DNA of 64,000 nucleotides from Bradyrhizobium arachidis (GTDB taxonomy: Bacteria; Pseudomonadota; Alphaproteobacteria; Rhizobiales; Xanthobacteraceae). Below the pieces are notes generated by a model that made no database searches, was not told where the DNA came from, and saw nothing but the letters and a program-made list of their open reading frames with translations. Below are positions 30,997-61,870 of the stretch, in pieces. The position numbers and the translations under genes were made by a program. Each line of letters opens with the position of its first letter. Position 1 is the stretch's first letter. The DNA lies in the NCBI RefSeq assembly GCF_024758505.1, contig NZ_CP077970.1, forward strand, positions 5,828,001-5,892,000. Reading direction: 5' to 3'.

Positions 30997-31004
30997 GCAG
31001 CGCA

Positions 31005-39524: not shown

Positions 39525-40466
39525 ATGAATAACGTGCGGTTTGACTTGAACCTGGCTGCGGTGCTCGAAGCCATCATGATGGAGCGGAACGTCACGCGGG
39601 CGGCAGCCGCCCTCGGCATGAGCCAGCCGGCCGTGAGCAACGCGCTGCGACGTGCTCGTGCCTTGGCGGGCGACCGGCTGTTCCTGAAAGTCGCTGCCGG
39701 GATGCAACCCACAGCAAGAATGCTGGCAATCTGGCCGGAGCTTCACCGCTCACTCGGGATGATCCGGGCTTCGATCACACCGCACCATTTCGATCCACGC
39801 ACGGAAACGACCACCTTCCGCCTTGCGGTGACGGACAGCCTAGCCGTCGAAGCCGTCTCCGCCATCACCATGAGGTTGAGAGCTGCGGCGCCGCTGTCCC
39901 GTATCGCTTTTTCCATTCACACCAATGCAAATTCCCTGGCAGGCGTTGAGCGCGGGACCTTGGACTGCGCGGTCGGCATGTTCCCCGCCCTTCCCCGGCA
40001 CATGCATGTCCAGGGGGTTCGCACGGACCAGTACATTTGCGTCATGCGCCGAGACCACGAATTCGCCCAGCGCTTGACTTTGGAGCGGTTCGTCGCAGCT
40101 AATCATGTTCTGGTCACGCCATCCGGCAATGAACTGGGCGTGGTCGATGGATGGCTCAGCTTGCAGGGCCACGCACGATCGATCGTTGCGGTGGTCAATC
40201 ACTTCGCCGATGCTCTGCGAATTGTTGCGGAAAGCGACCTGCTCACCTGCGTGCCCCAGAGCTATGTCGAGGGTTACGGCCGAGCTCTCACCGTGAAGCA
40301 CGGGCTCGTGACCTGTGCATTACCCTTCGAAACCGAGCGAATACTTCACAAGATGATCTGGCACGAGCGCCTTCACACTCATCCCGCGCACCAGTGGTTT
40401 CGCGCGTTGGTAGCCGATGTTTGTGAGCTTCCTGCAGCCTTCGGTGATGAAGCTGTCGAAACTTAG
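39525..40466 (+). CDS. LysR family transcriptional regulator, NodD-like
   Basis: 313 aa. Winged helix in residues 1-65 (FDLNLAAVLEAIMMERNVTRAAAALGMSQPAVSNALRRARAL), very close to the NodD/NahR/LinR subgroup, whose members respond to aromatic or phenolic compounds. Effector-domain region follows. It is transcribed away from the RraA operon and probably controls it. The aromatic-type subgroup fits an aromatic or plant-derived inducer. Confidence 0.9.
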   Translation: MNNVRFDLNLAAVLEAIMMERNVTRAAAALGMSQPAVSNALRRARALAGDRLFLKVAAGMQPTARMLAIWPELHRSLGMIRASITPHHFDPRTETTTFRLAVTDSLAVEAVSAITMRLRAAAPLSRIAFSIHTNANSLAGVERGTLDCAVGMFPALPRHMHVQGVRTDQYICVMRRDHEFAQRLTLERFVAANHVLVTPSGNELGVVDGWLSLQGHARSIVAVVNHFADALRIVAESDLLTCVPQSYVEGYGRALTVKHGLVTCALPFETERILHKMIWHERLHTHPAHQWFRALVADVCELPAAFGDEAVET

Positions 40467-40731
40467 TCAGTTCCATTGGATCATGTACGCATGGATGAGC
40501 CCGTGCGAGCAATTGCATCTGACGTCGTCGATCGACCAAGGACGGAGCTCAGCAAAGCCATACGATCGCGATCTTGATCCCCCGCAACGCCTTTCCCTCT
40601 TCCAGGCAGCATATCTCGTTGCCCATCAGCGAACGCTGCTCGGCCGGATGATGCTTTGCGCCCAAAGCCGCACTCCTCGAGATCACTTGCTGGCCCGACG
40701 CTGATCCACCCACCGTGGAAAATCAGATGCG
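40467..40731. other. gap between LysR and GMC genes
   Basis: 265 bp where two convergent genes end. No hairpin terminator with T-run and no supported gene were found. Confidence 0.4.
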
Positions 40732-42417
40732 CTACAACACAGCCCACTTCATCGAGATTTTCGGGCTGAGCCGTTCGTTCGACGTGTTAGGTTCCATGTT
40801 TGCCGAGTGCGGTGCGGCGAACGTCGTCTTCCCGAGAATCAGGTCTGCCGCCTTCTCCGCTATCATGATGGTGGGTGCGTTCGTATTGGATGACGTGATG
40901 CGCGGCATCACGGAAGCGTCGCAAATCCGCAGACCATCGACTCCACGAAGTCTCAGCGACGGATCGACCACCGCCAGTTGGTCAGTGCCCATTCGGCAGG
41001 TGCCTACAGGGTGATGATCGGTCTTGCAGGTCCTGAACGCATAGTCGACGAGAGCGGCCTCGCTTGTGGCCGCAACACCGGGCATCCGCTCGACCATGAC
41101 GAATGGCTCGAGCGCGGGTTGCCGGAGAATCTCACGGGCCATCTTCAGCCCCTCGATCGCTGTCGAGCGATCGCGCGCGTCAGACCAGTAGTTCGGGTCA
41201 ATCATGGGCATCGCGAAGGGATCGCCGCTTGCGAGCCGCACGGTGCCGCGTGAGCCCGGCCGCAAGAATGCCGAATTGAGCGTGACACCCGCGTTGCGGA
41301 GCTTCTCCACGCCCGCCTCGATTCCTGAGCCGAGCCCGAGATGGAATTGCACGTCCGGCCATTCCTGCGCCCTCGCCGCCGGCTCGACGTACCAGAAGCC
41401 CCCTGTCTCAAATAGGGTGGACGCGACCGGTCCGCGCTTGAACAGCAGATATTCCAGGCCCGCCCAGATCGTGCGGTGCAGCTTCACATAGCTGTCGTAG
41501 GTAAAGTCGCCCCTGCACTCCGCAATCGCATAGAGGTCGAGGTGGTCCTGAAGATTCTCGCCCACACCGGGTAAATCGTGGATCGGCTTGATGCCGACTG
41601 AACTCAGATGGTCGGCCGGACCGATCCCCGATAGGAGCAGAAGGCGAGGCGATCCGATGGCGCCGGACGCAAGGATGACCTCCCGCTCGGCGCGAACGAT
41701 CTCCCGCTGCCCTTGACGCATCATCTCCAGTCCGACAGCACGCCCATTCTCGACCACGATCCGCGTGCTGTAGGCGCTGGTAAGGACGGTGAGATTCGGT
41801 CGGCCGTGGATTGGCTTCAGATAGGCGGTAGCGGTCGAGCACCGCCGCGCATCGCGCACCGTCACCTGATAGTGGCCGACGCCCTCTTGCCGCGCACCGT
41901 TGAAATCGGGATTGTAGGGAATTCCGTATTCCTGCCCGGCTCGCAGAAAAGCCTCGCTGATTGGCAAGGGGTTGACGGGCACCGAGACGCCCAGGGGGCC
42001 ACCACGCGCATGGTAGGCATCGACGAAGCGCTGGTTATCTTCGGCGCGCTTGAAATACGGCAAGACATCCGCGTAGCTCCAACCTGTCGCGCCGTCCTCC
42101 GCCCAGCCATCATAGTCGCGGACGTTTCCACGGGTGTAGACTTGCGCGTTGATGCTGGAACCGCCGCCGAGCACCTTCGCCTGCGTATAGCGCAGCACCC
42201 GGCCCCCAAGGTGGCGCTGGGGCACCGTCGAGTATCCCCAGGAGGCGATGCCCTTGGTCATCTTGGCAAAACCCGCCGGCATGCTGAACAGCGGGTTGTT
42301 GTCGCTGCTGCCAGCCTCGAGCAGGAGCACCCGGATCGACGGATCGGCACTCAGGCGGTTGGCGAGAACGCAGCCGGCGGAGCCGGCGCCGACGACGATG
42401 TAATCGTAAACCGTCAT
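40732..42417 (-). CDS. GMC oxidoreductase, choline dehydrogenase-like
   Basis: 561 aa FAD flavoenzyme. N-terminal FAD motif DYIVVGAGSAGCVLANRL; GMC signature 1 LGGGSSINAQVYTRG; signature 2 GAIGSPRLLLLSGIGP; catalytic His in DHHPVGTCRMG and Asn in SSNTNAPTIMIAE near the end. It oxidises an alcohol to an aldehyde or ketone. A C-terminal tail of about 30 residues beyond the usual end looks unstructured. The start overlaps the stop of the second GMC gene by 4 bases (ATGA). Last gene of the sugar-importer operon. Confidence 0.92.
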   Translation of the reverse strand: MTVYDYIVVGAGSAGCVLANRLSADPSIRVLLLEAGSSDNNPLFSMPAGFAKMTKGIASWGYSTVPQRHLGGRVLRYTQAKVLGGGSSINAQVYTRGNVRDYDGWAEDGATGWSYADVLPYFKRAEDNQRFVDAYHARGGPLGVSVPVNPLPISEAFLRAGQEYGIPYNPDFNGARQEGVGHYQVTVRDARRCSTATAYLKPIHGRPNLTVLTSAYSTRIVVENGRAVGLEMMRQGQREIVRAEREVILASGAIGSPRLLLLSGIGPADHLSSVGIKPIHDLPGVGENLQDHLDLYAIAECRGDFTYDSYVKLHRTIWAGLEYLLFKRGPVASTLFETGGFWYVEPAARAQEWPDVQFHLGLGSGIEAGVEKLRNAGVTLNSAFLRPGSRGTVRLASGDPFAMPMIDPNYWSDARDRSTAIEGLKMAREILRQPALEPFVMVERMPGVAATSEAALVDYAFRTCKTDHHPVGTCRMGTDQLAVVDPSLRLRGVDGLRICDASVMPRITSSNTNAPTIMIAEKAADLILGKTTFAAPHSANMEPNTSNERLSPKISMKWAVL

Positions 42418-43931
42418 CTCATGTCCCCATGAGTTCGAAGATCGGTCCTCGCAACATGATCCGCGACGCGCAACGCCTGGGCCGCGATTGTCAGCGACGG
42501 GTTCACCGCCGCCGAGGTCGGCAGGAACGACGCATCGACAACGAACAGATTGGGGTGATCAAAGGCACGGCAGAACGGATCAAGCGGTGATGTCGCGGGA
42601 TCGAGGCCGATGCGCACCGTCCCGCACTGATGCGAGGGTGTGCGCCGATCAAACGCCTTTGACAGGACGATCGGGTAGCCCGCGGCACGCAGCCGTTCCT
42701 TCAACGTCGCCACCAGCGCCAGATGGGTCGTCCAGTTCGAACGCCGCCAGTCGAGCCGGATACTCGCACCATCGACCGTCACACGGCTCTCGGCGCTCGG
42801 CAGATCCTCGCTCATCGCGTACCAGTCGACCGCATGCCGGCTCATCAGCCCAAGCGCCAATTCCGGTGCGAGCGGCATGTTGGCCTTGAGAATCGGCGCG
42901 GTGACCCGTCCAAGCAACTGGATGTTGCCGAGGGGCGGTCCGCCGTGCCCGTCATCAAGATAGAAATCGTTGATGCCGATCGTCTTCTGGTAGATCGAGT
43001 CGTTCACGACGCGCGGGTCGATCGCCAGCACCGCCGAGGAATTGTGGTTCATGAAATAGCGGCCGACCGCATCGGAACGGTTCGCGATGCTGGCCTGTGA
43101 CGAGCGCAGAAGCAGTGCGGCAGAATTGACGGCGCCTGCCGCGAGCACGACGATGCCGGCGCCGATCGTCGTCCGCTCACCGGCCTGGATAACCTCAACG
43201 CCGGCGATGCGTTTGCCGTCCGGCTCGACGACCAGCCGCTCGACCTGCGCACCTTCGCGCAGTTCGACATTGTCATGGGCGAGAGCACAGGCAAGCCCAC
43301 AGGATTCGGCATCCATCTTGCCGTGCCCGGCGTCCGGGAATGCATCCCAGGGCGTCTTGGCACGTCTGAGCCATGTCTCGATATCGATGCCGAGCGGCAG
43401 TGAAAACGGCTTGAGCCCGATCTTTTTGAGCCGCTGCCGTACCGCTGATATCGCTGGCTCGTCCGGCACCGGACCGAACGGATAGGGCCCCGAGTGAAAC
43501 GGCTCCGAGGAATCGTCTCCGAGCGCGCCGCGCACGTTATAGAGCTGCTCCGCGCGGGTATACCACGGCTCCAGTTCGCCATAGCTGAACGGCCAGCCCG
43601 GCGTCGTTCCGTCGCGATGCACGATGGGAGCGAAGTCTTCCGCGCGGTAGCGGATCAGGACCGCCCCGTAGAGCTTGGTATTGCCGCCGACGTAATAGTA
43701 GTTGCCGGGGTTGAAGGCCTTCCCGGCCCCATCAAGCCAGGACTCCTGGGGCCGGAACACTCCGCGCTGAAAGATCGCCCTCGCGTCCCGCGCGGCCTCG
43801 CAGTCGTGCAGACGCTGGCCGCGCTCGAGGATCAGAATACTTGCGCCCGTAGGCGCCAGACCCGCGGCAAAGGTCGCACCGCCCATTCCCGATCCGATGA
43901 CGAGGACATCGGCCGTCTCCGTGATCTTCAT
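42414..43931 (-). CDS. GMC oxidoreductase, sugar/glucoside dehydrogenase type
   Basis: 505 aa. FAD motif DVLVIGSGMGGATFAAGL; VGGNTKLYGAVLIRYR around residues 82-97; C-terminal active site HQCGTVRIGLDP (catalytic His) and SAAVNPSLTIAAQALRVAD (Asn). The HQ-GT-R-G form and the length resemble pyranose oxidase, gluconate dehydrogenase and FAD glucoside 3-dehydrogenase proteins rather than choline dehydrogenases. No export signal is seen. Downstream of the sugar ABC importer, it may oxidise the imported sugar, for example at C3, which fits the nearby Gfo/Idh/MocA enzyme. The precise activity is inferred. Confidence 0.88.
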   Translation of the reverse strand: MKITETADVLVIGSGMGGATFAAGLAPTGASILILERGQRLHDCEAARDARAIFQRGVFRPQESWLDGAGKAFNPGNYYYVGGNTKLYGAVLIRYRAEDFAPIVHRDGTTPGWPFSYGELEPWYTRAEQLYNVRGALGDDSSEPFHSGPYPFGPVPDEPAISAVRQRLKKIGLKPFSLPLGIDIETWLRRAKTPWDAFPDAGHGKMDAESCGLACALAHDNVELREGAQVERLVVEPDGKRIAGVEVIQAGERTTIGAGIVVLAAGAVNSAALLLRSSQASIANRSDAVGRYFMNHNSSAVLAIDPRVVNDSIYQKTIGINDFYLDDGHGGPPLGNIQLLGRVTAPILKANMPLAPELALGLMSRHAVDWYAMSEDLPSAESRVTVDGASIRLDWRRSNWTTHLALVATLKERLRAAGYPIVLSKAFDRRTPSHQCGTVRIGLDPATSPLDPFCRAFDHPNLFVVDASFLPTSAAVNPSLTIAAQALRVADHVARTDLRTHGDMR

Positions 43932-43951
43932 GCAGCTCTCGCAGCGCTCGT

Positions 43952-45064
43952 TCAGATACGGTGCGTGGTCGTTGGGTCGAACAGCACCGCCTTGTCGAGG
44001 TTGAACGCAAATGTGTGCGGTTCGCCGAGCCGAACGTCAGCATCGGCACGCATGCGGGCAGTCACCTCCTTGCCCGCGACCTGGATGACGACATAGGTGT
44101 CCGATCCGGCAGGCTCGATGATCTCCACGCGCGCATTGAACCTGACAACCGATCTGGCGTTGCGGTCCATGCTCTCGTCGTCATTCACTGCCTCTGGGCG
44201 AATGCCGAAGATCACCCTGGCACCGTCCTTGAGCCCGGTAGCATCGGCACTCGCCGGCACGGGCAGCATGATCGGTGACCCATCCTTGCGCACGAGCGCG
44301 ATCCGCTGCTGGCCATCCGCCTGCACAACGGTGCCCTCGAGCAGGTTCATCGCCGGCGATCCCATGAAGTCCGCAACGAACATATTGGCGGGACGATTAT
44401 AGATCTCGCTCGGGCTTCCCACCTGCTGCAGTTCGCCATTCTTCAGCACGGCGATCTTCGTCGCCAGCGTCATGGCCTCGATCTGGTCGTGCGTGACATA
44501 CACGATCGTCGTGCCGGTCGTCTGATGCAGACGCTTGATCTCGACCCGCATGTCGACGCGCAGCTTGGCATCGAGGTTCGACAACGGCTCGTCGAACAGA
44601 AAGACACTGGGGCGTCTGACGAGCGCCCGTCCCATGGCGACCCGCTGTCTCTGTCCGCCGGAAAGCTGGCTCGGCCGGCGCGACAAGAGATGTTCGATCT
44701 GCAAGGTCTTCGCGACCGAAGCGACCGCTTTGTCGCGCTCCGCTCTCGGAACACCACGCATTTCCATGCCGAACCCGATGTTCTCGGCGACCGACATGTT
44801 CGGGTAGAGCGCATAGGACTGGAAAACCATTGCGATGTCCCGCTTTGACGGGTGCAGGTCGTTGACAACAGCGCCGCCGATGCGGATCTCGCCCGAAGAG
44901 ATCCCCTCCAGGCCCGCAATGGTGTTGAGCAGGGTCGATTTACCGCAGCCCGACGGACCGACCAGCACCAGAAAGCCGCCTTTCTCGAGGGTGATGTCGA
45001 TCCCCTTCAAAACCTCGATCGTCCCGAAGCGTTTGCGGAGCGAGCTGATCTCGAGCGTGGCCAT
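43952..45064 (-). CDS. sugar ABC transporter ATP-binding protein (MalK/UgpC type)
   Basis: 370 aa. Walker [11 protein letters not shown]-loop [18 protein letters not shown], signature [19 protein letters not shown], Walker [17 protein letters not shown], and switch THDQIEAM. The C-terminal regulatory OB-type domain (about residues 240-370) is complete. It energises the carbohydrate importer encoded just upstream. Located 4 bp after the second permease gene. Confidence 0.93.
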
Positions 45065-45068
45065 CTCT

Positions 45069-46016
45069 TCATCCCTTTACGGCGCCAGCCATCAGGCCGC
45101 GGACAAAATATCGACCGGCAATGACATAGACGAGCAGCGTCGGCGCGGCGGCGATGATCGCAGCCGCCATGTTGACGTTGTATTCGACCACGCCCGTCGA
45201 GGTGTTGACGAGATTGTTCAGCGCGACCGTCATCGGCGCGGTGTCGCCGGCCGCAAAGGTCGAGCCGAACAGGAAATCGTTCCAGATATTGGTGAACTGA
45301 TAGATCACGGTGACGATGATGATCGGCGTGGAGTTCGGCAGCAGGATCCGGCGGAAGATCTGGAAGAAACTCGCACCGTCGATCATGGCGGCCTTGACGA
45401 GTTCGGACGGAAACGCCGCGTAATAGTTGCGGAAGAACAGGGTGGTGAATCCCAACCCATAGATGACGTGCACAATCACCAGATTGACGGTCGCGTTGCC
45501 GAGACCGAACGACCAGCCGGTCAAGTCAGCGAGATTGACTCCGATGCGGCCGAGCATGCCAAGGATCACGGCCATCGGGATGATGACCGACTGGAACGGG
45601 ATGAAGCAGGCGAACAGCATCATCCCGAACACAAGCTTGTGGCCGGGAAAGCTCCACTTGGTCAGGACGTAGCCGTTCAATGCACCGAGCAGAGTCGAGA
45701 TCAGAACTGCCGGAACGACCATTTTGACCGAGTTGAAGAAATAGCCGCTGATCCCGCGCGTGTCCGACACTCCGATGCGTGCCTCGCCCCATGCCATGGA
45801 CCAGGGCGCGAACGTCAGGTGCCGCGGAAGAGCGAACATGTTGCCGCCGGTGACCTCGTCTAGCGGCTTGAGCGACGTCATCACCATGACCAGCAGCGGC
45901 ACGAGATAGACGAGCGCAAAAAGAAACAGCAGGCCATAGATGACGATCCGCGTCGTCCGAGAATGGCCCGGACGGCGGCGCGATGGCGCTGACGTGACCA
46001 GATCCGCGGCGCTCAT
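45069..46016 (-). CDS. carbohydrate ABC transporter permease (MalG/GtsC type)
   Basis: 315 aa with six helices. The EAA loop VKAAMIDGASFFQIFRRILLPNSTPI is present, with the MalG-type arrangement. A positively charged, Arg-rich N-terminus precedes helix 1. The start overlaps the stop of the other permease by 4 bases (ATGA), so the two are translated together and form the heterodimeric channel. Confidence 0.92.
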   Translation of the reverse strand: MSAADLVTSAPSRRRPGHSRTTRIVIYGLLFLFALVYLVPLLVMVMTSLKPLDEVTGGNMFALPRHLTFAPWSMAWGEARIGVSDTRGISGYFFNSVKMVVPAVLISTLLGALNGYVLTKWSFPGHKLVFGMMLFACFIPFQSVIIPMAVILGMLGRIGVNLADLTGWSFGLGNATVNLVIVHVIYGLGFTTLFFRNYYAAFPSELVKAAMIDGASFFQIFRRILLPNSTPIIIVTVIYQFTNIWNDFLFGSTFAAGDTAPMTVALNNLVNTSTGVVEYNVNMAAAIIAAAPTLLVYVIAGRYFVRGLMAGAVKG

Positions 46017-46969
46017 CGGTTCTGCTCCCTGGTTTCCGAGTAGATGTAGGGAACCATGATCGCCGCGATCGTCATCAGCATGATCACCGCGCTGGCCGAT
46101 CCGATCGCCATCTGGTTGCGGGTGAACGTATAGGAGTACATGAAAGTTGACGGCAGCTCCGCGGCCCCGCCGGGGTTCTTGCCAGTCACCGACAGCACGA
46201 GGTCATAGGACTTGATCGCCATGTGGGCCAGCACGATCAAGGCCGAGAAGAAGACCGGGCGTATGATCGGAATGACGATGCGGCGATAGGTCTGGTAGGT
46301 CGAGGCACCGTCGATCTGCGCAGCCTTGAGGATTTCGCCGTCGACACCGCGAAGCCCGGCGAGAAACATCGCCATGACGAAGCCCGAGCTCTGCCAGATG
46401 CCCGCGATCGCGACGCAATAGATCATCATCTTCGGATCGACCACCCAGTCGAAATGGAAGCTGGTCCATCCCCAGTCGTGCAAGGCGTTTTCGAGCCCGA
46501 TGCGCGGATCCAGGAACAGCTTCCAGGCCGTGCCGGTAACGATGAACGACAGCGCCAATGGATAGAGATAGATCGGCCGCAAGATGCCTTCGCCGCGAAT
46601 CTTCTGATCAAGCAGGATCGCCAGCAGCAGGCCGAGGAAAAGGCAGAAGAAGATGTAGAGCCCGCCGAACAGACCCATGTTGACGAGGGCGGTGTACCAG
46701 TTCGACGGCGGATCGGTCTCGAAGGTCCAGTTCCACAGCCTCACATAGTTGGTAAAGCCGATGAGGTTGGTGGTTGGAAACGCCTTCGAATTCGTAAACG
46801 ACAGAAACAGGGTCCAGAGATTGAAGCCGTAGACGAAGACCAGCACGAGCAGGAATGACGGCGCCAGCACGAGCCGTGGCAGCCAGTCCTGGAAATACCC
46901 GCGCAGAGACGGGCCGAGCTTCCGCCGGGTCATCGCGGTTGCCGCCTCGCGTTCGGTCATCGCGGTCAT
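46013..46969 (-). CDS. carbohydrate ABC transporter permease (MalF/GtsB type)
   Basis: 318 aa. LVLAPSFLLVLVFVYGFNLWTLFLSFTNSKAFP at the start matches the glucose/mannose GtsB group; the EAA loop KAAQIDGASTYQTYRRIVIPIIRPVF is intact. Six helices. Preceded by a 133-bp gap from the binding-protein gene that contains a strong hairpin (47054-47089). Confidence 0.92.
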   Translation of the reverse strand: MTAMTEREAATAMTRRKLGPSLRGYFQDWLPRLVLAPSFLLVLVFVYGFNLWTLFLSFTNSKAFPTTNLIGFTNYVRLWNWTFETDPPSNWYTALVNMGLFGGLYIFFCLFLGLLLAILLDQKIRGEGILRPIYLYPLALSFIVTGTAWKLFLDPRIGLENALHDWGWTSFHFDWVVDPKMMIYCVAIAGIWQSSGFVMAMFLAGLRGVDGEILKAAQIDGASTYQTYRRIVIPIIRPVFFSALIVLAHMAIKSYDLVLSVTGKNPGGAAELPSTFMYSYTFTRNQMAIGSASAVIMLMTIAAIMVPYIYSETREQNR

Positions 46970-47053
46970 GATGATCCTCCGAAAGCCACGCCCCGTCGCC
47001 GCGACGAGCCCTGGACGGCGACGCAGGCATGGCGATGACTTCGATTTCGACAG

Positions 47054-47089
47054 CCTCTCCCGTTTGCAGAGCAGTGCAAACGGGAGAGG
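47054..47089. other. 15-bp perfect stem-loop between binding-protein and permease genes
   Basis: Arms CCTCTCCCGTTTGCA and TGCAAACGGGAGAGG with a 6-base loop, 14 bp past the binding-protein stop. There is no T-run on the minus strand, so it should not fully terminate. Such intercistronic hairpins usually stabilise the upstream mRNA and keep binding protein in excess over permease. Confidence 0.7.
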
Positions 47090-47102
47090 AGCCGCCGAGC
47101 CA

Positions 47103-48368
47103 CTACTTGGCTGCGTTGATTGCCTTCACGAGCTCGGTCACGGCAATGTCCGACGTCTTGATCCCGCCGTGCATGAACTTCGTCACGACATCGTAGTACG
47201 CCGTGGCGATGGCCGGCGGCTGGGCGTAGTTCTGGGCGAGCGAGCCGAAGAACGTTCCCTTTGCGTTGGCCGCCTTGACGTCCGCGATGCCCTTCTTGCC
47301 GCATATATCGAAGGCAGCGTCGGAAACGTCCGTTCTCGCCGGGACGGAGCCCTTGATGACGTTGAACGCCGACTGGACGTCGGGGTTCATCGTCACCTGG
47401 GCCAGTGCAAGCTGCGCCGCCTGGCGATCCGCCGGGACCTTGAAGAAGGCGAACATGTCGGAGTTATAGAACACCGAGCCGTCCGTGCCCGGGAAGCGGT
47501 AGCAAAGGTAGTCCTTTCCCGCCTCTTTGTGCGCGGCCGCGAACTCGCCCTTGGCCCAGTCGCCCATCACCTGCACGAGCGCGTCGCCCTTGATCACCAT
47601 GGCGGTCGCGAGATTCCAATCGCGTCCGGTGTAGTTCGGGTCGACGTAGTCGCGCAGCTTGGCAAGGTTGTCGAACGCCTTCTTCATCGTGTCGGACTTG
47701 AGCGCGCCCTCGTCGAGGTCCACGAAAGCCTTCTTGTAGAAGTCGGTGCCGCCGGTCGAGGCGACGATCGAATCGAACATCGTCGCCTCCTGCCAGGGTT
47801 GGCCGCCAAGTGCGAGCGGAATGACGCCTGCCTTCTTTGCCTTGTCGAGCAGCGCGACAAACTCATCGAAGCTCTTCGGCTCCGTACCGCCGATCTTCTC
47901 CATCACGGCCTTATTTAGCCAGATCCAGTTGACGGAATGAATGTTGATCGGAACGGCACCCCACTTGCCGTTTGTCTTGGCAAACTTCTGCAGTGCAGCC
48001 GGCACGACCTTGTCCCAGCCGTCCTTGTCCGCAAGCGACGAAATGTTGGCGAGCGAGCCCTGTTCGGCATACTCGAGCGCGTAGTAGCCGAGGATCTGCG
48101 ACGCCGTCGGCGGGTTGCCCGCGGCGACATTGGCCTTCAGCGTGGTCATTGCCGCACCACCGCCGCCGCCGGCGACCGGCACGTCCTTCCAGGCAAATCC
48201 CTGCTTGGCGACGGCCTGCTTGATGACGTCGAGCGCGGCCGCCTCGCCGCCTGACGTCCACCAATGCAGCATCTGCACTTCCTTGACGTCCGCCGCGTGC
48301 GCCAGCGTCCCATAGCTGATGGTGACGGCAGTCAAAGCCGTCGAGATCAGAAATGCGCGGAACTTCAT
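47103..48368 (-). CDS. sugar ABC transporter substrate-binding protein (GtsA-like)
   Basis: 421 aa family 1 solute-binding protein. Signal peptide MKFRAFLISTALTAVTISYGTLAHA. The mature start VQMLHWWTSGGEAAALDVIKQ, then WKDVPVAGGGGGAAMTTLKANVAAGNPP, closely resembles glucose/mannose-binding GtsA proteins. Further blocks: IPLALGGQPWQEATMFDSI and VMGDWAKGEF. The ligand is probably a hexose or glycoside-like sugar, but its place in a CoA- and flavoenzyme-containing operon may mean a modified sugar. A 155-bp gap upstream could hold an extra promoter. Confidence 0.9.
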   Translation of the reverse strand: MKFRAFLISTALTAVTISYGTLAHAADVKEVQMLHWWTSGGEAAALDVIKQAVAKQGFAWKDVPVAGGGGGAAMTTLKANVAAGNPPTASQILGYYALEYAEQGSLANISSLADKDGWDKVVPAALQKFAKTNGKWGAVPINIHSVNWIWLNKAVMEKIGGTEPKSFDEFVALLDKAKKAGVIPLALGGQPWQEATMFDSIVASTGGTDFYKKAFVDLDEGALKSDTMKKAFDNLAKLRDYVDPNYTGRDWNLATAMVIKGDALVQVMGDWAKGEFAAAHKEAGKDYLCYRFPGTDGSVFYNSDMFAFFKVPADRQAAQLALAQVTMNPDVQSAFNVIKGSVPARTDVSDAAFDICGKKGIADVKAANAKGTFFGSLAQNYAQPPAIATAYYDVVTKFMHGGIKTSDIAVTELVKAINAAK

Positions 48369-48401
48369 ACGCGTGTCCCTTCCCTTTTTTTGGTCGTTTC
48401 C

Positions 48402-48463
48402 TGCCGGAAACGGTCCGGCACCGTTTCGAGAGGCCTATTCGAGAGGCTCTAGAATTTTATTCT
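48402..48463. promoter_or_regulatory. repeat-rich leader of the sugar importer
   Basis: Upstream of the binding-protein gene: inverted repeat TGCCGGA-N5-TCCGGCA (48402-48420); a 10-bp direct repeat TTCGAGAGGC at 48425 and 48438 (13-bp period); and palindrome AGAAT-TTT-ATTCT (48451-48463). It may form an internal promoter or operator; the regulator is not evident. Confidence 0.4.
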
Positions 48464-48523
48464 CGTTGTCGTCCGCGGTTGCCGCCGAACCCATTGGAGC
48501 GGCCCGCCTTCAAAGCTCCTTTC

Positions 48524-49297
48524 CTAGTGTCCAACAAAACGGGGGGCGCGCTTGCCCCTGAAGGCGGCAACGCCCTCGGCGAGATCATCGGTCGTGGCGG
48601 TGAGCGCACCGGCAAGCCCTTCGATGGGGGCATCACTGTCCTCCCCTTCGGCCGCATTGATCATGGCCTTGACGATCTGCACGGCAAGCGGGCCGCGCGC
48701 GGCAACATCGGACGCCAGGCTTTCAGCGCGCGTCAGTGCCTGGCCGCCGTCGGTCACTTCGTCGACCAGCCCGATCTCGCAGCCTTCTTCGGCCGTGAAC
48801 AGATAGCCCGTGAGCGCCATGCGACGCACCACGGAGGCGCCGAAGCGACGAACCAGGCGCTGCGTCCCCGACCAGCCCGGCGCCATGCCCAATCCCGTCT
48901 CCGGAAGTCCGAGCTTGATGCCGCGCTCGGCGATGCGCACGTCCGCCACCGCGGCGAGCTCCAGTCCGCCGCCGAAGGCGTGGCCGGTGAGCGCCGCAAT
49001 GAGTGGCACGCGCAGGCGCGCCAGCGCCTCGAAGGCGCGATGACCTGCGCGCGTCCAATCGCGCCACATGTCAAGTGGGGGCAAATCGCCCCAGGCCGCA
49101 ATATCGCCGCCGGCGCAAAATGTCTTGCCTTCGCCGAACAGGATCGCCACGCGGGTCTCGCGTGAGGCCTCGATGGCCCGCGCCGCCTCGCCGAGCGCCT
49201 CGACCATGTCGCGGTCAAGCGCATTGAGCTTTTCGGGGCGCTTGAGGCCGAGGCGGGCGATCGATCCCTGGAAGGTCAATTCGACAAACGGGCTCAA
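48524..49297 (-). CDS. enoyl-CoA hydratase/isomerase (crotonase) family protein
   Basis: 257 aa. The CoA-binding motif is FGEGKTFCAGGDIAAWGD, and ALTGHAFGGGLELAAVADVRIAE is the second signature. KLGLPETGLGMAPGWSGTQRLVR includes a glutamate at the usual catalytic position, but the second active-site acid is less clear. The start is TTG at 49297, overlapping the upstream CoA-transferase stop by 4 bases (TTGA) with GGAGGG 4 bases away. Acts on a CoA ester made by the transferase. Confidence 0.88.
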   Translation of the reverse strand: MSPFVELTFQGSIARLGLKRPEKLNALDRDMVEALGEAARAIEASRETRVAILFGEGKTFCAGGDIAAWGDLPPLDMWRDWTRAGHRAFEALARLRVPLIAALTGHAFGGGLELAAVADVRIAERGIKLGLPETGLGMAPGWSGTQRLVRRFGASVVRRMALTGYLFTAEEGCEIGLVDEVTDGGQALTRAESLASDVAARGPLAVQIVKAMINAAEGEDSDAPIEGLAGALTATTDDLAEGVAAFRGKRAPRFVGH

Positions 49298-50883
49298 GCT
49301 GCCCTCCGCAATTCGAGGCCAATCGGTTCGGGACGGAACAGCATGGCCGGCATCAACTTCAGATTGCCTGCCACTCGCAGCGGGAACTCTGATTGTGCAA
49401 GCACGTCGCGCTGCAAGTCAACACCGGGCGCGATCTCAACGACGGTGACCCCCTCGGGCTCGAGCCTCAGGACGCAGCGTTCGGTGACGTAGACGATCTC
49501 CTGCCCCTGCGCGACCGCCCGCCTACCCGAGAAGGACACCTGCTCGACCTCGTTGACGAGCTTCCTGACCTTCCCTTCCCTTGTAATCCGCAATGAGCCG
49601 TCGGCGATCTCAAGCCCTGCTCCCGCGGTGAAGTAACCCGAGAACACGATGCGCCTGGCTCGCGCCGTGATGTCGACAAAGCCGCCAGCCCCGGCCGTCA
49701 CATGGGGACGGAGGCCGAGCTTCGAAACGTTGACCGAGCCTGAGCGGTCGATCTGCAGAAACGAGAGCAGCGACATGTCGAAGCCACCGCCTTGGAAATA
49801 GGTGAATTGATGCGGCGACTGGACGATAGCCTCGGCATTGGACGCGCAGCCGAACTGGAAGTCGAGCAGCGGAATGCCGCCGATGGCGCCCTGCTCGATC
49901 ACCCAGGTGACCGCACCGTGCCGCCCTTCCTCGATCAGAATACGCGGGACGTTGGCCGAAATGCCGAATCCGATGTTGACGGCGTCGCCGTCGCGAAGCT
50001 CCATCGCGACGCGCCGCGCGATGGCTTTGCTGACGTCGAATTTTGGCGTCTCAAACGAGGCGATTGGCCGAAAGATCTCGCCGGAAATCGCGGGCTCATA
50101 GGGCGTGTTCGTGGTCTGCAGCTGGTCCGGGGCTACGACGATCGCGTCGACGAGCACGCCGGGCACGACGACGTCGTGAGGGCGCAATGTGCCGGCAGCC
50201 GCGAGGCGCTTGACCTGGGCGATCACGAGACCACCATTGTTGCGCACGCTCAGCGCCTGGTCGAGCGGCCCGAGAATGCCGCCTTCGTGTTCATAGGACA
50301 GGTTGCCGCGCTCATCCGCGGTCGTGGCGCGAATGATCGCGACTTGCGGAATGATGCTCGGGAAAAACAGCCAGTCCTCACCGGCGAAATTCACACGACT
50401 GACGATCGGCTCGGCGGCAGCCTTGGCGTTCATCGCGCAGCCTTCTCGCATCGGGTCGACGAAGGTGTCCATGCCGACCTTGGTCAGCACGCCCGGGCGC
50501 TTCGCGGCGGCTTCACGATGCATGTCAAACAGGATGCCCGACGGCACGTTGTAGGCGGGAATGGTGTCTCCCGAAATCATCTCCCAGATCACCGGGGGAG
50601 AAGCCGAGGAAGGGCCGGATGGATAAGAGCCGGCCAGAACCTTCTTGAGGCATCCGGGCTTTGCGATGTGATCGATGCCTTTGATACCCCACATGTCGCC
50701 GGCAGCGATCGGATGCAGCGTCGTCAGGTTGCGCGGGTGGCCTTCGGCATCAAATCTTGCGCCGATGGCGGCGAGCACCGCATCCGGACAGCCCAGCCCG
50801 GACGACGAAGAGACCGTCACGACGGCGCCGTCGGGGATCAGATGGGCCGCCTCCGAAGCGGTCAAGACCTTCGTTCGTGCCAT
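49294..50883 (-). CDS. fused acyl-CoA:acid CoA-transferase (family I)
   Basis: 529 aa, alpha and beta domains on one chain (about residues 1-260 and 275-520), like acetate/3-oxoacid CoA-transferases of the YdiF group. The glycine-rich N-terminal part (VVTVSSSSGLGCPDAVL) and the second-domain catalytic Glu in VIEQGAIGGIPLLDFQFG are visible. It moves CoA to a carboxylic acid, activating it for the crotonase encoded next. Position directly after the Gfo/Idh/MocA gene (7-bp gap) shows co-transcription. Confidence 0.9.
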   Translation of the reverse strand: MARTKVLTASEAAHLIPDGAVVTVSSSSGLGCPDAVLAAIGARFDAEGHPRNLTTLHPIAAGDMWGIKGIDHIAKPGCLKKVLAGSYPSGPSSASPPVIWEMISGDTIPAYNVPSGILFDMHREAAAKRPGVLTKVGMDTFVDPMREGCAMNAKAAAEPIVSRVNFAGEDWLFFPSIIPQVAIIRATTADERGNLSYEHEGGILGPLDQALSVRNNGGLVIAQVKRLAAAGTLRPHDVVVPGVLVDAIVVAPDQLQTTNTPYEPAISGEIFRPIASFETPKFDVSKAIARRVAMELRDGDAVNIGFGISANVPRILIEEGRHGAVTWVIEQGAIGGIPLLDFQFGCASNAEAIVQSPHQFTYFQGGGFDMSLLSFLQIDRSGSVNVSKLGLRPHVTAGAGGFVDITARARRIVFSGYFTAGAGLEIADGSLRITREGKVRKLVNEVEQVSFSGRRAVAQGQEIVYVTERCVLRLEPEGVTVVEIAPGVDLQRDVLAQSEFPLRVAGNLKLMPAMLFRPEPIGLELRRAA

Positions 50884-50890
50884 GTCCGCC

Positions 50891-52938
<2,048 letters not shown>

Positions 52939-52961
52939 GCCCTTCGCGAGCCTCCCGAAAT

Positions 52962-52975
52962 TTGGAACGTTCCAA
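52962..52975. promoter_or_regulatory. putative LacI operator 1
   Basis: Perfect 14-bp palindrome TTGGAACGTTCCAA, 23 bp upstream of the LacI start. It shares the GAACGTTC core with operator 2, typical of LacI-family sites with a central CG. Confidence 0.72.
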
Positions 52976-53058
52976 TACTCCCATTCCTCTCGATGCGCAA
53001 GGGCTCAAAATTGCGACGAATGTGGAATCTTGGCCTGGAACGTCAGAGCTTCCATATT

Positions 53059-53072
53059 ATAGAACGTTCCAA
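53059..53072. promoter_or_regulatory. putative LacI operator 2
   Basis: ATAGAACGTTCCAA, 12 of 14 identical to operator 1. It ends 49 bp before the SDR start, in the expected promoter position. Centres of the two sites are 97 bp apart, which would allow looping. Confidence 0.68.
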
Positions 53073-53121
53073 ATCAGACCCCCTCGTTCGCTTGGGCTCG
53101 AGCGCATGAAAGGAGACCGAT

Positions 53122-53895
53122 ATGGACGATCAGCAACGACCTCGCGCTTTGGTGACGGGAGCGGGACGCGGCATCGGCCGCGCCATCGCGCTCGCGCTAT
53201 CGCGAGCCGGCTTTTCGATCATCGTGAATGATCTTCCTGGCTCGAAAGATCTCGACGAGACGGTGGCAGCCATCCGCGAAACAGACGGGGATGCAAATGC
53301 CATCGCGCTGGATATTTCGCAGGTCGAACAGCACCATCAATTCGTGGACGAAGCCTGGAACGCCTTTGGCGGCATCGACTGCCTCGTCAACAATGCTGGT
53401 GTATCCGTTAGCGTCCGCGATGATCTCTTGAACATGACGCCGGAGAGCTATGACCGCGTCATGAGGATCAACCTGCGCGGTCCCCTCTTCCTCACCCAGG
53501 AGGTCGCACGGCGGATGATCGACGCGCAATCGCACCACTTTCGCAGTATCATCACGATCTCGTCGATCAATGCCGAATTCGCCTCGATTGACCGCGGCGA
53601 GTACTGCGTCTCCAAGACGGGCTTGTCCATGATGGCTCGGCTTTTCGCTATCCGGCTTGCCGATCACGGCATCGGGTCCTACGAGCTTCGGCCCGGAATC
53701 ATCCGAACGCAAATGACCGCAGTCGCCAAGGATAAGTACGACCGACTCATCGGCGAGGGTCTCACGCCTATCAAGCGCTGGGGTGAGCCTGAGGACATCG
53801 GAAAGGCCGTCGCTACCCTGGCGACAGGCCAGTTCAGCTATTCGACGGGAGATGTCATCCACGTCGATGGCGGTCTGGCGCTCCGGAAGCTCTGA
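53122..53895 (+). CDS. short-chain dehydrogenase/reductase
   Basis: 257 aa. Cofactor motif VTGAGRGIGRAIALAL; NNAG in CLVNNAGVSV; catalytic Ser in ITISSINAE and YCVSKTG (Tyr-Lys); C-terminal STGDVIHVDGGLAL. The usual classical SDR set is complete. It is divergent from the LacI gene with an operator in its promoter, so it belongs to the sugar module rather than the rhamnose locus, although it meets rhaI tail-to-tail 20 bp away. AAAGGAG is found 8 bases before the ATG. Confidence 0.9.
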   Translation: MDDQQRPRALVTGAGRGIGRAIALALSRAGFSIIVNDLPGSKDLDETVAAIRETDGDANAIALDISQVEQHHQFVDEAWNAFGGIDCLVNNAGVSVSVRDDLLNMTPESYDRVMRINLRGPLFLTQEVARRMIDAQSHHFRSIITISSINAEFASIDRGEYCVSKTGLSMMARLFAIRLADHGIGSYELRPGIIRTQMTAVAKDKYDRLIGEGLTPIKRWGEPEDIGKAVATLATGQFSYSTGDVIHVDGGLALRKL

Positions 53896-53915
53896 CGCGG
53901 AAGCAGGCCCCTCGC

Positions 53916-55214
53916 CTAGACAATTCCTGCCGACATCCCGCCGATGGCGGGACGCTCTATCGCCTTTTGCGCGCGATAATGGGATGCGCGATAGGCTGCG
54001 ATCGGCGCGATCGCACCGCCGGCGCGCAGGCGGGCAATGGCGAGCAGCGGCGAGACGTCGGTCGTGAAGGCGCGTTTCAATTCGAGATGCGCACCGAGCG
54101 CGTCATTGGCCTCTTGCGCCGCCTCGAGCGCCGCGCGGTCGACGATCAGAGCCTGCGCATAGGCGCGCTGCAACTCGATCGCCGATTGCATCAGGCTCTC
54201 GATCGGATCGGTCACGTTATGCGACTGGTCAATCATATAAGCGGGCGCGAAGCCTTCCACCTTGCGGCGCTCGGCGTCGATCAGCTCATTGAAGACGAGA
54301 AACAGCCGGAACGGCTCGACCGAGCCGCTGTCGAGATCGTCGTCGCCATATTTTGAATCGTTGAAATGGAAGCCCGCGAGCTTCCCGAAGCGAACGAGCC
54401 TGGCGACGATCTGCTCGATATTCACGTTCGGCGCATGATGGCCGAGATCGACGAGACAATAGGCCTTGGGCCCAAGCTCATGCGCGACCGCGAAGCTCGT
54501 ACCCCAATCCGAGATCACGGTCGAGTAGAACGCCGGCTCGTAGAGCTTGTGCTCGAGGAACACTCGCCAGTCGGCAGGCAGCGCGGTGACGATCTCGCAC
54601 ATCGCGTCGATATAGCGGTCGAGTGCCTTGCTCAGATTCGATTGGCCGGCAAAGTTCGAGCCATCAGCGATCCAGACGGTCAGCGCCTTCGAACCGAGCT
54701 TCCGCCCGATCTCGATGCATTTGATGTTGTGGGCGATGGCCTGTGCGCGCACACGCGCATCAGTATGCGACAACGAACCAAACTTGTACGAAAGCTCCTG
54801 TCCCGGCTGATCCTGGAACGTGTTGGAATTGACCGCGTCGAAGGCAAGGCCGTGCGTCGCGGCCTGCTCGCGCAAGGCAGCATAGTCGTCGACCTTGTCC
54901 CACGGAATGTGCGGCGAGATGGTCGGAGTCGCCCGCGCCAATCGCTGGATCACCGCGCAATCGTCGATCTTCTCGAAGACATTGCGCGGCTCACCCGGCC
55001 CCGGAAAGCGGGCGAAACGCGTGCCCCCTGTACCGACACCCCAGGTCGGAATGGCGACACCGAAGGCCATGACCTTCTGCACCAGGGCTTCCGCGTCGAT
55101 CCCGTGCCGCGCCAGCGCGCGCTTCAGGGCGTCATAGTCCTCGGTGGTCGCGTCTTCGAGCCGCGCATTGTGCTCGGCAATGAAATCGGCGCTGATCGAG
55201 AACGGCGTGCTCAT
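53916..55214 (-). CDS. rhaI: L-rhamnose isomerase, rhizobial type
   Basis: 432 aa from the ATG at 55214; a longer frame exists upstream but lies within rhaD. It converts L-rhamnose to L-rhamnulose. TIM-barrel features: FGVAIPTWGVGTGGTRFARFP, VFLEHKLYEPAFYSTVISDWGT (metal Glu), LVDLGHHAPNVNIE (metal Asp/His), GFHFNDSKYGDDDLDSGSV (His, Asp). It resembles the Pseudomonas/rhizobial RhaI rather than E. coli RhaA. The start overlaps the rhaD stop by 4 bases (ATGA). Confidence 0.93.
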   Translation of the reverse strand: MSTPFSISADFIAEHNARLEDATTEDYDALKRALARHGIDAEALVQKVMAFGVAIPTWGVGTGGTRFARFPGPGEPRNVFEKIDDCAVIQRLARATPTISPHIPWDKVDDYAALREQAATHGLAFDAVNSNTFQDQPGQELSYKFGSLSHTDARVRAQAIAHNIKCIEIGRKLGSKALTVWIADGSNFAGQSNLSKALDRYIDAMCEIVTALPADWRVFLEHKLYEPAFYSTVISDWGTSFAVAHELGPKAYCLVDLGHHAPNVNIEQIVARLVRFGKLAGFHFNDSKYGDDDLDSGSVEPFRLFLVFNELIDAERRKVEGFAPAYMIDQSHNVTDPIESLMQSAIELQRAYAQALIVDRAALEAAQEANDALGAHLELKRAFTTDVSPLLAIARLRAGGAIAPIAAYRASHYRAQKAIERPAIGGMSAGIV

Positions 55215-57307
55215 CGCGTGAAGGCCTGGGCGTTGCCGGCGTCGACATTGAGGATATTGCCGGTCGATTTGGCCGATAGGTCGGATGCAAAGAAGTAGAC
55301 ACCCTCCGCGATATCCTCCGGGAAAACCGACAGCTTGAGCATCGAGCGCTGGCGGTAGACTTCCTCGAGCTGGTCTTCCGTGACCTTGTTGGACGCCGCG
55401 CGCTGCTGGCGCCATTCGCCTTCCCAGATCTTCGAACCCCGCAGCACCGCGTCCGGATTGACCGTGTTGACGCGGATGCCATGCGTAGCGCCTTCCAGCG
55501 CCAGGCAGCGGGCGAGATGGATCTCCGACGCCTTGGCGGCGCAATAGGCCGAAGCGCCTGCCGAAGCGGCAAGGCCGTTCTTCGAGGCGACGAAGATGAT
55601 GGCGCCGCCCATGTTCTGACGCTGCATCAGCCGGAACGCCTCGCGCGAGACGAGAAAATAGCCGGTGGCGAGAATGTCCATGTTCTTCTGCCAAAGCCCG
55701 AGACTCGTGTCCTCGACCGGCGAGGCCGAGGCGATCCCGGCATTCGAGACGACGATGTCGACACCGCCAAAGGCGCGCGCGGCTTCATCGAACGAAGCGA
55801 CCACCGCCGCCTCGTCGGTTACATCGAGCTTCACACCGATCGCCGCGTCGCGGCCATGGCGCTTCGTGATCGCCGCAACGCGCTCGTTCAACGCCTTCTC
55901 GTCGATATCCGCAATGACGAGGCACGCGCCTTCACCGAGTAGCCGCTGCGCGGTCGCCCCGCCAATGCCGCCGGCACCGCCGGTCACATAGGCGATCCGC
56001 CCGGCAAGCGATTTCGGCTTGGGCATGCGCTGGAGCTTGGCCTCTTCCAACAGCCAATATTCGATATTGAAGGCCTCCTGCTCGGCGAGACCGACATAGG
56101 CGCTGACGCCCGAGGCGCCGCGCATGACGTTGATCGCGTTGACGTAGAACTCGGCCGCAACGCGCGCCGTCGCCTTGTCCTTGGCAAACGTGAACATGCC
56201 GATTCCCGGCACGAGATACACGACCGCGTTGGGATCGCGCATGGCCGGCGAGTCCGGATGCTTGCAGCGCCCGTAATAGGCGGCGTAGTCGCGCCGGTAA
56301 GCGGCGAGAACGTCGTCGAGGCCGGCGATCACCTCGTCGAGATTGTCGCGCACGGGATCGTAGGGCAGCAGCAACGGCCGGATCTTGGTACGAAGAAAGT
56401 GATCCGGACAGGAGGTGCCAAGCGGCGCCAGCTTCGTCAGCGCGCTGGAGTTGACGAACTCCAGAACCTCCGGGGCATCGGTAAAATGCCCGATCTTGCG
56501 CTCGTCCGCGGAGATCTTGCCGCGGATCAACGGCATCAGCCTTGCCGCGATCGCGCGGCGCTTTTCCGGCGAAGCCGTTTCGACCTTGACACCGCCGAAA
56601 GCCGGCTTCTGCTCATGCGCGGCAAGCCAATCGGCGGCCTGCTGAATCACGCGCAAGGTCATCTCGTAACAGGCTTTCGACGTCTCAGCCCAGGTGAAGA
56701 GCCCGTGGCCGCCGAGGACCACGCCGACATAGTCGGGATGGCGCGCGGCCATGTCGCCGAGCTTCAGGCCAAGATCGAAACCCGGCCGCTGCCAAGGCAG
56801 AAACCCGAGCTTGCCGCCGAAAACCTCGCGCGTCAGACGCTCGGCGTCGGCCGAGGCGGCGATGGCGATGACCGCGTCGGCATGGACGTGATCGACATGC
56901 CGGTGCGGCACGAAGGCGTGCAAGGGCGTATCGATCGAAGTCGCGCGCGGATTGAGATCGAAGGTGCAGTGATTGAACAATGCGACCATCTCGTCCTCAT
57001 GGGCGAGGCCGCGATAGAGACCTTTCAGGCTCTCGAGCTTGTCGAGGTACAGCGTCGAAAAGCCGTCGCGCTTCATCGAGCCGAGATCGCCGCCTGACCC
57101 TTTGACCCAGAGCACGCGTACGTTCGCGCGCGTCAGCGGATCCTTCATCTCGATCTTGGCCGAGGTGTTACCGCCGCCGAAATTGGTGATGCGCAGATCG
57201 GCCCCGAGCAGGTTCGAGCGGTACAGCAATTGACCTGCCTCATCGAGCCCGGCGGCGAGCGCATCGTCCCAGAGATTTGGCAGGGGCGTGGCCGCGACCT
57301 CGCTCAT
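55211..57307 (-). CDS. rhaD: bifunctional rhamnulose-1-phosphate aldolase / short-chain dehydrogenase
   Basis: 698 aa from the ATG at 57307. An N-terminal class II aldolase domain (about 1-400) has HVDHVHADAVIAIA (zinc His residues) and VVLGGHGLFTWAET; it cleaves rhamnulose 1-phosphate to DHAP and lactaldehyde. A C-terminal SDR domain (about 430-698) has VTGGAGGIGGATAQRL, SNAGIASASPVED and YCAAKASEIHLA (Tyr-Lys), and probably oxidises lactaldehyde to lactate. The fusion is the rhizobial RhaD form. First gene of rhaD-rhaI, divergent from rhaR. Confidence 0.94.
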   Translation of the reverse strand: MSEVAATPLPNLWDDALAAGLDEAGQLLYRSNLLGADLRITNFGGGNTSAKIEMKDPLTRANVRVLWVKGSGGDLGSMKRDGFSTLYLDKLESLKGLYRGLAHEDEMVALFNHCTFDLNPRATSIDTPLHAFVPHRHVDHVHADAVIAIAASADAERLTREVFGGKLGFLPWQRPGFDLGLKLGDMAARHPDYVGVVLGGHGLFTWAETSKACYEMTLRVIQQAADWLAAHEQKPAFGGVKVETASPEKRRAIAARLMPLIRGKISADERKIGHFTDAPEVLEFVNSSALTKLAPLGTSCPDHFLRTKIRPLLLPYDPVRDNLDEVIAGLDDVLAAYRRDYAAYYGRCKHPDSPAMRDPNAVVYLVPGIGMFTFAKDKATARVAAEFYVNAINVMRGASGVSAYVGLAEQEAFNIEYWLLEEAKLQRMPKPKSLAGRIAYVTGGAGGIGGATAQRLLGEGACLVIADIDEKALNERVAAITKRHGRDAAIGVKLDVTDEAAVVASFDEAARAFGGVDIVVSNAGIASASPVEDTSLGLWQKNMDILATGYFLVSREAFRLMQRQNMGGAIIFVASKNGLAASAGASAYCAAKASEIHLARCLALEGATHGIRVNTVNPDAVLRGSKIWEGEWRQQRAASNKVTEDQLEEVYRQRSMLKLSVFPEDIAEGVYFFASDLSAKSTGNILNVDAGNAQAFTR

Positions 57308-60831: not shown

Positions 60832-60836
60832 GCGCC

Positions 60837-61820: not shown

Positions 61821-61870
61821 TGCAGTGACTGGCCGCGAAAAGAGCGGCTTCAACATGGGAGGAAAACAAA

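Follow-up and report, generated by a model that had tools for sequence, protein, structure and literature searches.

A conserved LacI-type operon of Bradyrhizobium arachidis as a candidate coenzyme A-dependent route for 1,5-anhydro-sugars

Introduction

In the aerobic rhizobial route for 1,5-anhydro-sugars, the enzyme that follows 1,5-anhydro-D-fructose reductase (AFR) has not been identified, and it is described as P450-like in section 5.1 of a 2025 review (PMC12441222). In a different setting, the excerpted account of deoxyribonate catabolism in Klebsiella michiganensis proposes a CoA-synthetase, a hydroxyacyl-CoA dehydrogenase, a thiolase, a CoA-transferase and a glycerate kinase (PMC6365646). 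And a putative enoyl-CoA hydratase has been proposed, in the part of the source available, to be an oxepin-CoA hydrolase, which provides a precedent for a cyclic enol ether coenzyme A (CoA) ester (PMC9007349). Here we analyze an operon of Bradyrhizobium arachidis that brings sugar genes and CoA genes together. It lies within a stretch of 64,000 nucleotides, the window, which covers positions 5828001-5892000 of a 9.43 Mb single-contig genome (GCF_024758505.1, contig NZ_CP077970.1). The nearest named relatives at the locus are Bradyrhizobium.

The operon has a defined gene set that is conserved across genomes, a shared operator and enzymes with intact catalytic residues. Its genes seem to serve the uptake of a ring-shaped, sugar-like compound, its oxidation, and its breakdown after coupling to coenzyme A. 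It is highly probable that they encode a CoA-dependent pathway dedicated to some cyclic sugar or polyol. More tentatively, we favour a catabolic operon under LacI control whose substrate is a cyclic-ether polyol, most likely a 1,5-anhydro-sugar (1,5-anhydroglucitol, 1,5-anhydrofructose or 1,5-anhydromannitol). An earlier note on this DNA had argued from the premise that known sugar routes proceed without CoA activation. That premise fails, because deoxyribonate catabolism as excerpted uses CoA esters (PMC6365646), so the breakdown of sugar acids by way of CoA esters already has a precedent.

Results

Genes of the operon

Re-analysis returned the same gene content, strands and coordinates that the earlier note had given. 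The features are:

51892..52938, minus strand: LacI-family regulator (Pfam LacI and Peripla_BP_3)
50891..51928, minus strand: Gfo/Idh enzyme, predicted AFR type (PDB 4koa and 2glx, 451 and 448 bits)
49294..50883, minus strand: CoA-transferase (CoAT), family I, fused, in a clade of its own (PF01144, YdiF alignment, tree)
48524..49297, minus strand: crotonase (ECH), enoyl-CoA hydratase/dehydratase type (ECH_1; Glu113 and Glu133)
47103..48368, minus strand: CUT1 sugar-binding protein (SBP) (SBP_bac_1; 531 bits against PDB 4r2b)
46013..46969, minus strand: ABC permease 1 (BPD_transp_1)
45069..46016, minus strand: ABC permease 2 (BPD_transp_1)
43952..45064, minus strand: MalK/UgpC-type ATPase (NF008653, 449 bits, cut-off 432)
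42414..43931, minus strand: GMC2, FAD sugar-dehydrogenase-like (family match; H434 and N477 kept)
40732..42417, minus strand: GMC1, choline-dehydrogenase-like (NF002550, 595.8 bits, cut-off 605 not reached)
53122..53895, plus strand: divergent SDR (adh_short_C2; NF009386, 365.5 bits, cut-off 250)
52962..52975, no strand: predicted operator 1, TTGGAACGTTCCAA (motif and conservation)
53060..53071, no strand: predicted operator 2, TAGAACGTTCCA (motif and conservation)

The 4-base overlaps said to join the minus-strand run are present at three of the nine junctions (CoAT/ECH, permease/permease and GMC2/GMC1). A fourth overlap (LacI/Gfo-Idh, TTGA) is possible given that the likely start of the Gfo/Idh gene is the TTG at 51895 rather than 51928. 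The other joints measure 7, 4 and 20 bp, except around the SBP gene, which is separated by 155 bp from ECH and by 133 bp from the first permease. Internal terminators, which would have spoken against a single unit, are not indicated: terminator-like sites in 40400-54000 are at chance level (9 vs. a mean of 9.0 in shuffles), and reading the sequence of the two large gaps revealed no stem with a T-run. The 133-bp gap (46970-47102), between the SBP gene and the first permease, contains a perfect 14-bp inverted repeat that has no T-run.

Conservation across genomes

We searched for CoAT in 297 Hyphomicrobiales genomes and in 337 genomes drawn from the class. CoAT has 46 matches of at least 63% identity in 42 of the 297 genomes, this one included, and the next matches are at 47% or less; 7 of the 337 genomes, again including this one, match it at E ≤ 1e-180. 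The 8 other genomes of the same genus in the Hyphomicrobiales draw have no CoAT match of at least 63% identity. The CoAT locus is an accessory trait.

We studied 53 loci, comprising 40 of the 45 matching places outside this genome, named Bradyrhizobium loci, and eight plasmid regions. ECH accompanies CoAT in 50 of them, and one of the three others (L095) stops at a contig end. Co-occurrence was counted in the 48 loci of at least 17 kb, using thresholds of our choosing, and the fetched stretches often end before GMC1. AFR is present in 27 of these 48, and those 27 loci also carry ECH (27), GMC2 (27), SBP (26), SDR (23), LacI (22), aldehyde dehydrogenase (ALDH; 19), a GMC1-type enzyme (13) and DUF993 (12). 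Other genomes do pair the importer with CoAT and the crotonase, which the earlier note had proposed as a check, with ECH in 27/27 and the same SBP in 26/27. At a 60% threshold, an acyl-CoA dehydrogenase occurs in 0 of the 27 AFR loci, and thus the crotonase there is most simply a dehydratase. A glycerate kinase lies near CoAT in 8 of the 48.

The gene order is preserved in other Bradyrhizobium and in many families. Three loci (L007-L009) are near-copies of the window, although in L008 single hits cover 55% of SBP and 66% of GMC2. A fuller operon, which we call type A, reads LacI-AFR-CoAT-ECH-ALDH-SBP-permease-permease-ATPase-GMC2-SDR-GMC1, with a divergent DUF993 gene and at times a glycerate kinase. 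The gene set first described was right for the window operon and overlooked what the relatives add: ALDH, DUF993 and the occasional glycerate kinase are in many relatives' units and not in the window operon. Other parts of this genome encode a DUF993 protein (57% identity), relatives of the glycerate kinase (48 and 47%) and aldehyde dehydrogenases (up to 41%). In the relative L008, another Bradyrhizobium, DUF993 adjoins SDR; here that place is occupied by other genes (53916-62986), among them a xylose-isomerase-like protein (PF01261), a DeoR regulator and a Peripla_BP_4 sugar-binding protein, perhaps a rhamnose-type cluster.

A Paraburkholderia plasmid (L119) carries LacI, AFR, CoAT, ECH, ALDH, the importer, SDR, GMC1 and DUF993, and no GMC2 in the fetched stretch. 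Close to this operon copy, at 6756-7190, is a predicted VIM beta-lactamase listed in PLSDB. Another kind of cluster, type B, consists of CoAT, ECH, a GMC1-like enzyme, ALDH, SDR, DUF993, a glycerate kinase, a CUT2-type importer, an acyl-CoA dehydrogenase and an electron transfer flavoprotein (ETF).

AFR and GMC2 are adjacent on 11 of 11 AFR-bearing Bradyrhizobium plasmid records, and so they look like an (upstream) pair; no plasmid record at all has a CoAT above 80% identity. In the one such region that we read (L115 14010-16685, B. diazoefficiens plasmid pNK6a), AFR and GMC2 form a two-gene cassette among transposases, with no CoAT. The 10 other records list soybean as their source.

A shared operator

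The operator motif, TGGAACGTTCCA, was scanned with at most 1 mismatch in the 972 kb of 49 loci. Not counted among the 49 are the window itself, its near-copies L007 and L009, the short locus L011, and four plasmid loci of type B, in which no site occurs. We observe 79 sites, whereas 60 composition-matched palindromes gave 2.3 on average and 21 at most. A pair of sites within 250 bp occurs in 29 of the 49 loci, 7 have other sites, and 13 have none; among these 13 only L010 has AFR, and it carries two weaker sites. The pair stands between LacI and the divergent gene, or ahead of AFR. In L066, L069, L070 and L073 there is an extra site between SDR and GMC1, just before GMC1; one is beside SDR at the edge of L098; and a few loci, among them L087 and L088, have a further site within a gene.

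In the window, TTGGAACGTTCCAA and TAGAACGTTCCA are both located between LacI and SDR, in agreement with the operator region that these two genes had been proposed to share. Taken by itself, the window has 3 matches to the motif with at most 2 mismatches, a frequency in line with chance (3 or more in 28 of 100 shuffles). Support for the operator therefore comes from its conservation across loci and not from the count in the window. The genome has 1 exact TGGAACGTTCCA site and 9 with at most 1 mismatch, against 4 for a control pattern, so that no wider regulon is evident.

One genome, G203, splits the unit in two. One half (L072) is DUF993 divergent from CoAT-ALDH-GMC2-SDR-GMC1-GlxK, with an operator pair, and the other (L141) is LacI-AFR-ECH, with an exact operator. 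Since both halves carry the same operator, AFR and ECH are linked to the CoAT genes by evidence other than their position side by side. Our guess that an importer would lie beside AFR-ECH in L141 was wrong.

Conservation, shared operator and the split unit of G203 together indicate that CoA genes and sugar genes form one conserved, co-regulated unit. The most economical reading of such a unit is that a cyclic sugar or polyol is handled partly as a CoA ester. This much of the note's inference stands; its premise on the novelty of CoA does not, and the glucoside 3-dehydrogenase role that it gave to the GMC enzymes is not supported.

The enzymes

The Gfo/Idh protein scores 451 bits (4koa) and 448 bits (2glx) against PDB, both AFR entries and its nearest among solved Gfo/Idh enzymes, and the next entry scores 100. 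Inositol and glucoside dehydrogenases are far more distant from it than AFR is. The lysine of the EKP motif (K106) and the histidine H192, which we take to be catalytic, are kept in the window and in 27 of 28 relatives, the exception (L090) being truncated as read. Many metagenome relatives bear the AFR name from JGI, as annotation and not by assay. Judged by its sequence, the enzyme is of the 1,5-anhydro-D-fructose reductase type, a point that the family assignment first made, itself correct, had missed. Enzymes of this type use NADPH to reduce anhydrofructose, with anhydromannitol as the product.

The closest PDB relative of GMC2 is an FAD glucose dehydrogenase, a distant one at 112 bits, and H434 and N477 are conserved in 29 of 29 sequences. 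In FAD glucose and glucoside 3-dehydrogenase complexes, the gene for a small (gamma) subunit stands beside that for the GMC subunit. In the operon (the rest of the genome was not searched) no small-subunit gene is found beside GMC2, whose neighbours are MalK at 20 bp and GMC1 at -4 bp, and the largest operon gap is 155 bp. The distant match and the lack of room for a small subunit leave the glucoside 3-dehydrogenase role unsupported. GMC1 was rejected as a choline dehydrogenase (595.8 bits vs. a cut-off of 605 for NF002550; 506 vs. 732 for betA).

CoAT has the PF01144 domain and aligns with YdiF along its length, placing Glu330 on Glu333 of YdiF, presumably the catalytic glutamate of family I CoA-transferases; it is intact in 52 of 52 sequences. 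A tree splits the CoAT rows of types A and B alike from four paralogues with support 100/100 and a branch of 2.29. CoAT is not a FadX fatty-acid CoA-transferase (319 bits vs. a cut-off of 750 for NF052271).

The nearest PDB match of the crotonase is 3-hydroxypropionyl-CoA dehydratase, with which E113 and E133 align. These two residues, presumably the catalytic glutamates of a hydratase, are both kept in 50 of 50 sequences. The binding protein scores 531 bits against PDB 4r2b, reportedly solved with glucose, and 115 bits against 2b3b, a glucose-binding protein.

A possible pathway

We infer the following chain from established chemistry and the conserved gene set, and its details (substrate, order and every reaction) are unlikely to be right throughout. 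Since it lacks an anomeric hydroxyl, a 1,5-anhydro-sugar cannot be oxidised there, and its single primary alcohol is C6. The CUT1 importer would take up the anhydro-sugar. GMC2 and the AFR-type reductase could then interconvert the C2 states, from anhydroglucitol to anhydrofructose to anhydromannitol, while GMC1 and the ALDH that relatives encode in the operon would oxidise the C6 alcohol to a carboxylate. CoAT would form the CoA ester, in which H5 would be acidified. With the C6 acid esterified in this way, C4 carries the beta-hydroxyl and C5 the alpha hydrogen, the pattern on which crotonases act as dehydratases. The crotonase may thus eliminate the C4 hydroxyl by a beta-hydroxyacyl-CoA dehydration, giving a cyclic enol ether (the structure that oxepin also has), and hydration of the enol ether would open the ring to 2-keto-3-deoxyhexonate. 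Ring opening by a crotonase would correspond, in CoA-dependent form, to the chemistry of polysaccharide lyases. In relatives, DUF993 would cleave 2-keto-3-deoxyhexonate, and glycerate kinase would turn the C3 product into 2-phosphoglycerate. That the missing aerobic route for 1,5-anhydro-sugars consists in a dedicated transferase putting a uronate-like acid onto CoA, with a crotonase opening the ether ring, is a conjecture that we regard as doubtful.

DUF993 has an invariant lysine (K229, in VDGIKIS), which is suggestive only. We hand-picked, among its matches, 20 places away from this CoAT family. A similar Gfo/Idh gene is present in 17 of them, an enolase-like gene in 9 (one example scores 23.9 bits, under the Pfam cut-off of 29.4), and TctA-type carboxylate transporters in 7 (one example identified). 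This genome's own DUF993 gene (L112 8387-13010) is found with a PF01261 protein, another Gfo/Idh gene and an enolase-like gene. Two DUF993 clusters (L139 and L137) have a different CoA-transferase (40-41% identity), as though a CoA step had come to join DUF993 on more than one occasion. We found no paper on DUF993 in the open-licence literature searched.

Discussion

Weighing the explanations

Several observations weigh against a 1,5-anhydro-sugar as the substrate. According to the review, in the part available, Kuhn 2006 has anhydromannitol converted into mannose by C1 hydroxylation, with no CoA route (PMC12441222). Type B clusters share CoAT and ECH and have no AFR, and their CoAT rows nest among those of type A, so that the CoAT/ECH module is not specific to anhydro-sugars. 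In L068, L074, L076 and L096, LacI is followed directly by CoAT, with ECH kept and no AFR; these genomes have no AFR elsewhere at E ≤ 1e-40, and thus AFR is not essential. Conversely, the DNA fetched for L012 (71% identity), L115 (92%), L117 (47%) and L120 (46%) contains an AFR relative and no CoAT. Two long loci, L065 and L072, have no ECH beside CoAT; the genome of L072 (G203) has it elsewhere, and that of L065 (G261) has only a 36% ECH relative and no AFR. The window operon itself lacks ALDH, DUF993 and glycerate kinase. Finally, DUF993 as a homologue of DHDPS was tried with hhalign and rejected (probability 0.2, one 36-column match).

What else could the operon do? An ordinary hexose or glycoside might be oxidised at C3 or C1 by GMC2 and the Gfo/Idh enzyme, in 3-ketoglycoside-like chemistry, with the CoA pair acting on an aglycone acid or on a minor acid by-product, for example 3-hydroxypropionate. 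The affinities of GMC2 (FAD glucose dehydrogenase), SBP (2b3b, 115 bits) and the crotonase (3-hydroxypropionyl-CoA dehydratase as top PDB match) agree with this, as does a dispensable AFR. Yet no gene for a glycosidase, a 3-ketoglycoside hydrolase or a small GMC subunit exists in the window operon, and the Gfo/Idh enzyme is far nearer AFR than the inositol and glucoside dehydrogenases; we consider this explanation possible though rather unlikely. Less probable again is a beta-oxidation-like route for a deoxy-aldonate, in which CoAT swaps CoA between the acid and glyceryl-CoA and glycerate goes to glycerate kinase. The Klebsiella precedent as excerpted (PMC6365646), the glycerate kinase in 8 of 48 loci, an SDR that exceeds the cut-off of a 3-ketoacyl reductase model (NF009386), and the acyl-CoA dehydrogenase and ETF of type B would all fit, but such a route leaves AFR and GMC2 unexplained, and neither the window operon nor the annotated type A operons have a thiolase, a CoA-synthetase or a beta-keto acid cleavage enzyme. 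(The pcaF thiolase in L053 is part of a separate upstream cluster.)

It could also be that AFR is followed by C1 hydroxylation to mannose, as in the published route for anhydrofructose, and that the CoA genes, though controlled by the same regulator, act on a different compound. Kuhn 2006 as reviewed (PMC12441222) and the AFR relatives with no CoAT nearby are in its favour; however, LacI, AFR and ECH stand together under the same operator in the split G203, the window operon is without any oxygenase-family gene, and a P450 in the window was sought and rejected (the genome has 18 matches, 0 of them within 5828001-5892000), which makes it improbable. As for general acyl-CoA genes being chance neighbours within a sugar operon, CoA-transferases and crotonases are common, and this genome has two CoAT paralogues at 41% identity; the order conserved in many families, the separate clade and the shared operator rule against it, and we give it hardly any weight. 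We thus retain, tentatively, the 1,5-anhydro-sugar.

Significance

The operon may be how soil bacteria consume 1,5-anhydro-sugars in air, and it offers a small co-regulated candidate gene set for the aerobic rhizobial step after AFR. Lowering 1,5-anhydroglucitol in the gut would, according to the review, need an enzyme that acts on it aerobically (PMC12441222). The compound is described as the precursor of a toxic phosphate in two inherited neutropenias. If the chemistry were true, it would add a CoA-dependent way of opening sugar ring ethers. Even with another substrate, there is a CoAT/crotonase sugar module in many Alphaproteobacteria and one Paraburkholderia locus, with DUF993 as its linked unknown. 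Among the open-licence papers listed in our searches we found none on this gene set, which is weak evidence of absence; the available portion of a S. meliloti competitiveness study has COG-level hits and no anhydro or GMC term.

Outside the operon, at 27040-32069 on the plus strand, the window encodes a 2-hydroxyacid dehydrogenase, an M20 peptidase, a 298-aa protein without a family, and two carboxyltransferase-domain proteins (CT_C_D and CT_A_B).

Comparison with known systems

With the AFR of Sinorhizobium morelense (PDB 2glx) and PDB 4koa, the Gfo/Idh protein matches at 448 and 451 bits and shares the lysine and histidine positions. The published AFR route, as reviewed, has no CoA step, whereas the operon here joins a predicted AFR-type enzyme to CoA genes. 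With FadX and YdiF, CoAT has in common its length, fold family and catalytic glutamate, but it scores below the FadX cut-off and its clade is apart from the four paralogues.

The Klebsiella deoxyribonate route, as excerpted, also handles a sugar-derived acid as a CoA ester, with a CoA-transferase and a glycerate kinase, the latter found in the operon's relatives (PMC6365646). It differs in its CoA-synthetase, hydroxyacyl-CoA dehydrogenase and thiolase, and the excerpt describes no AFR, GMC pair or crotonase (PMC6365646); the window operon has no thiolase or CoA-synthetase, every one of its genes being of another family. The anaerobic 1,5-anhydroglucitol pathway of E. coli (YbiW, PflD) has the same proposed substrate class, and it differs by using phosphorylation and an oxygen-sensitive glycyl-radical cleavage, as the available part of the review describes (PMC12441222). 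The crotonase was rejected as an alternative oxepin-CoA hydrolase, since it scores 123 bits vs. a cut-off of 300 for NF046063. Both belong to the enoyl-CoA hydratase family, and a cyclic ether CoA ester is the substrate proposed for the hydrolase (PMC9007349).

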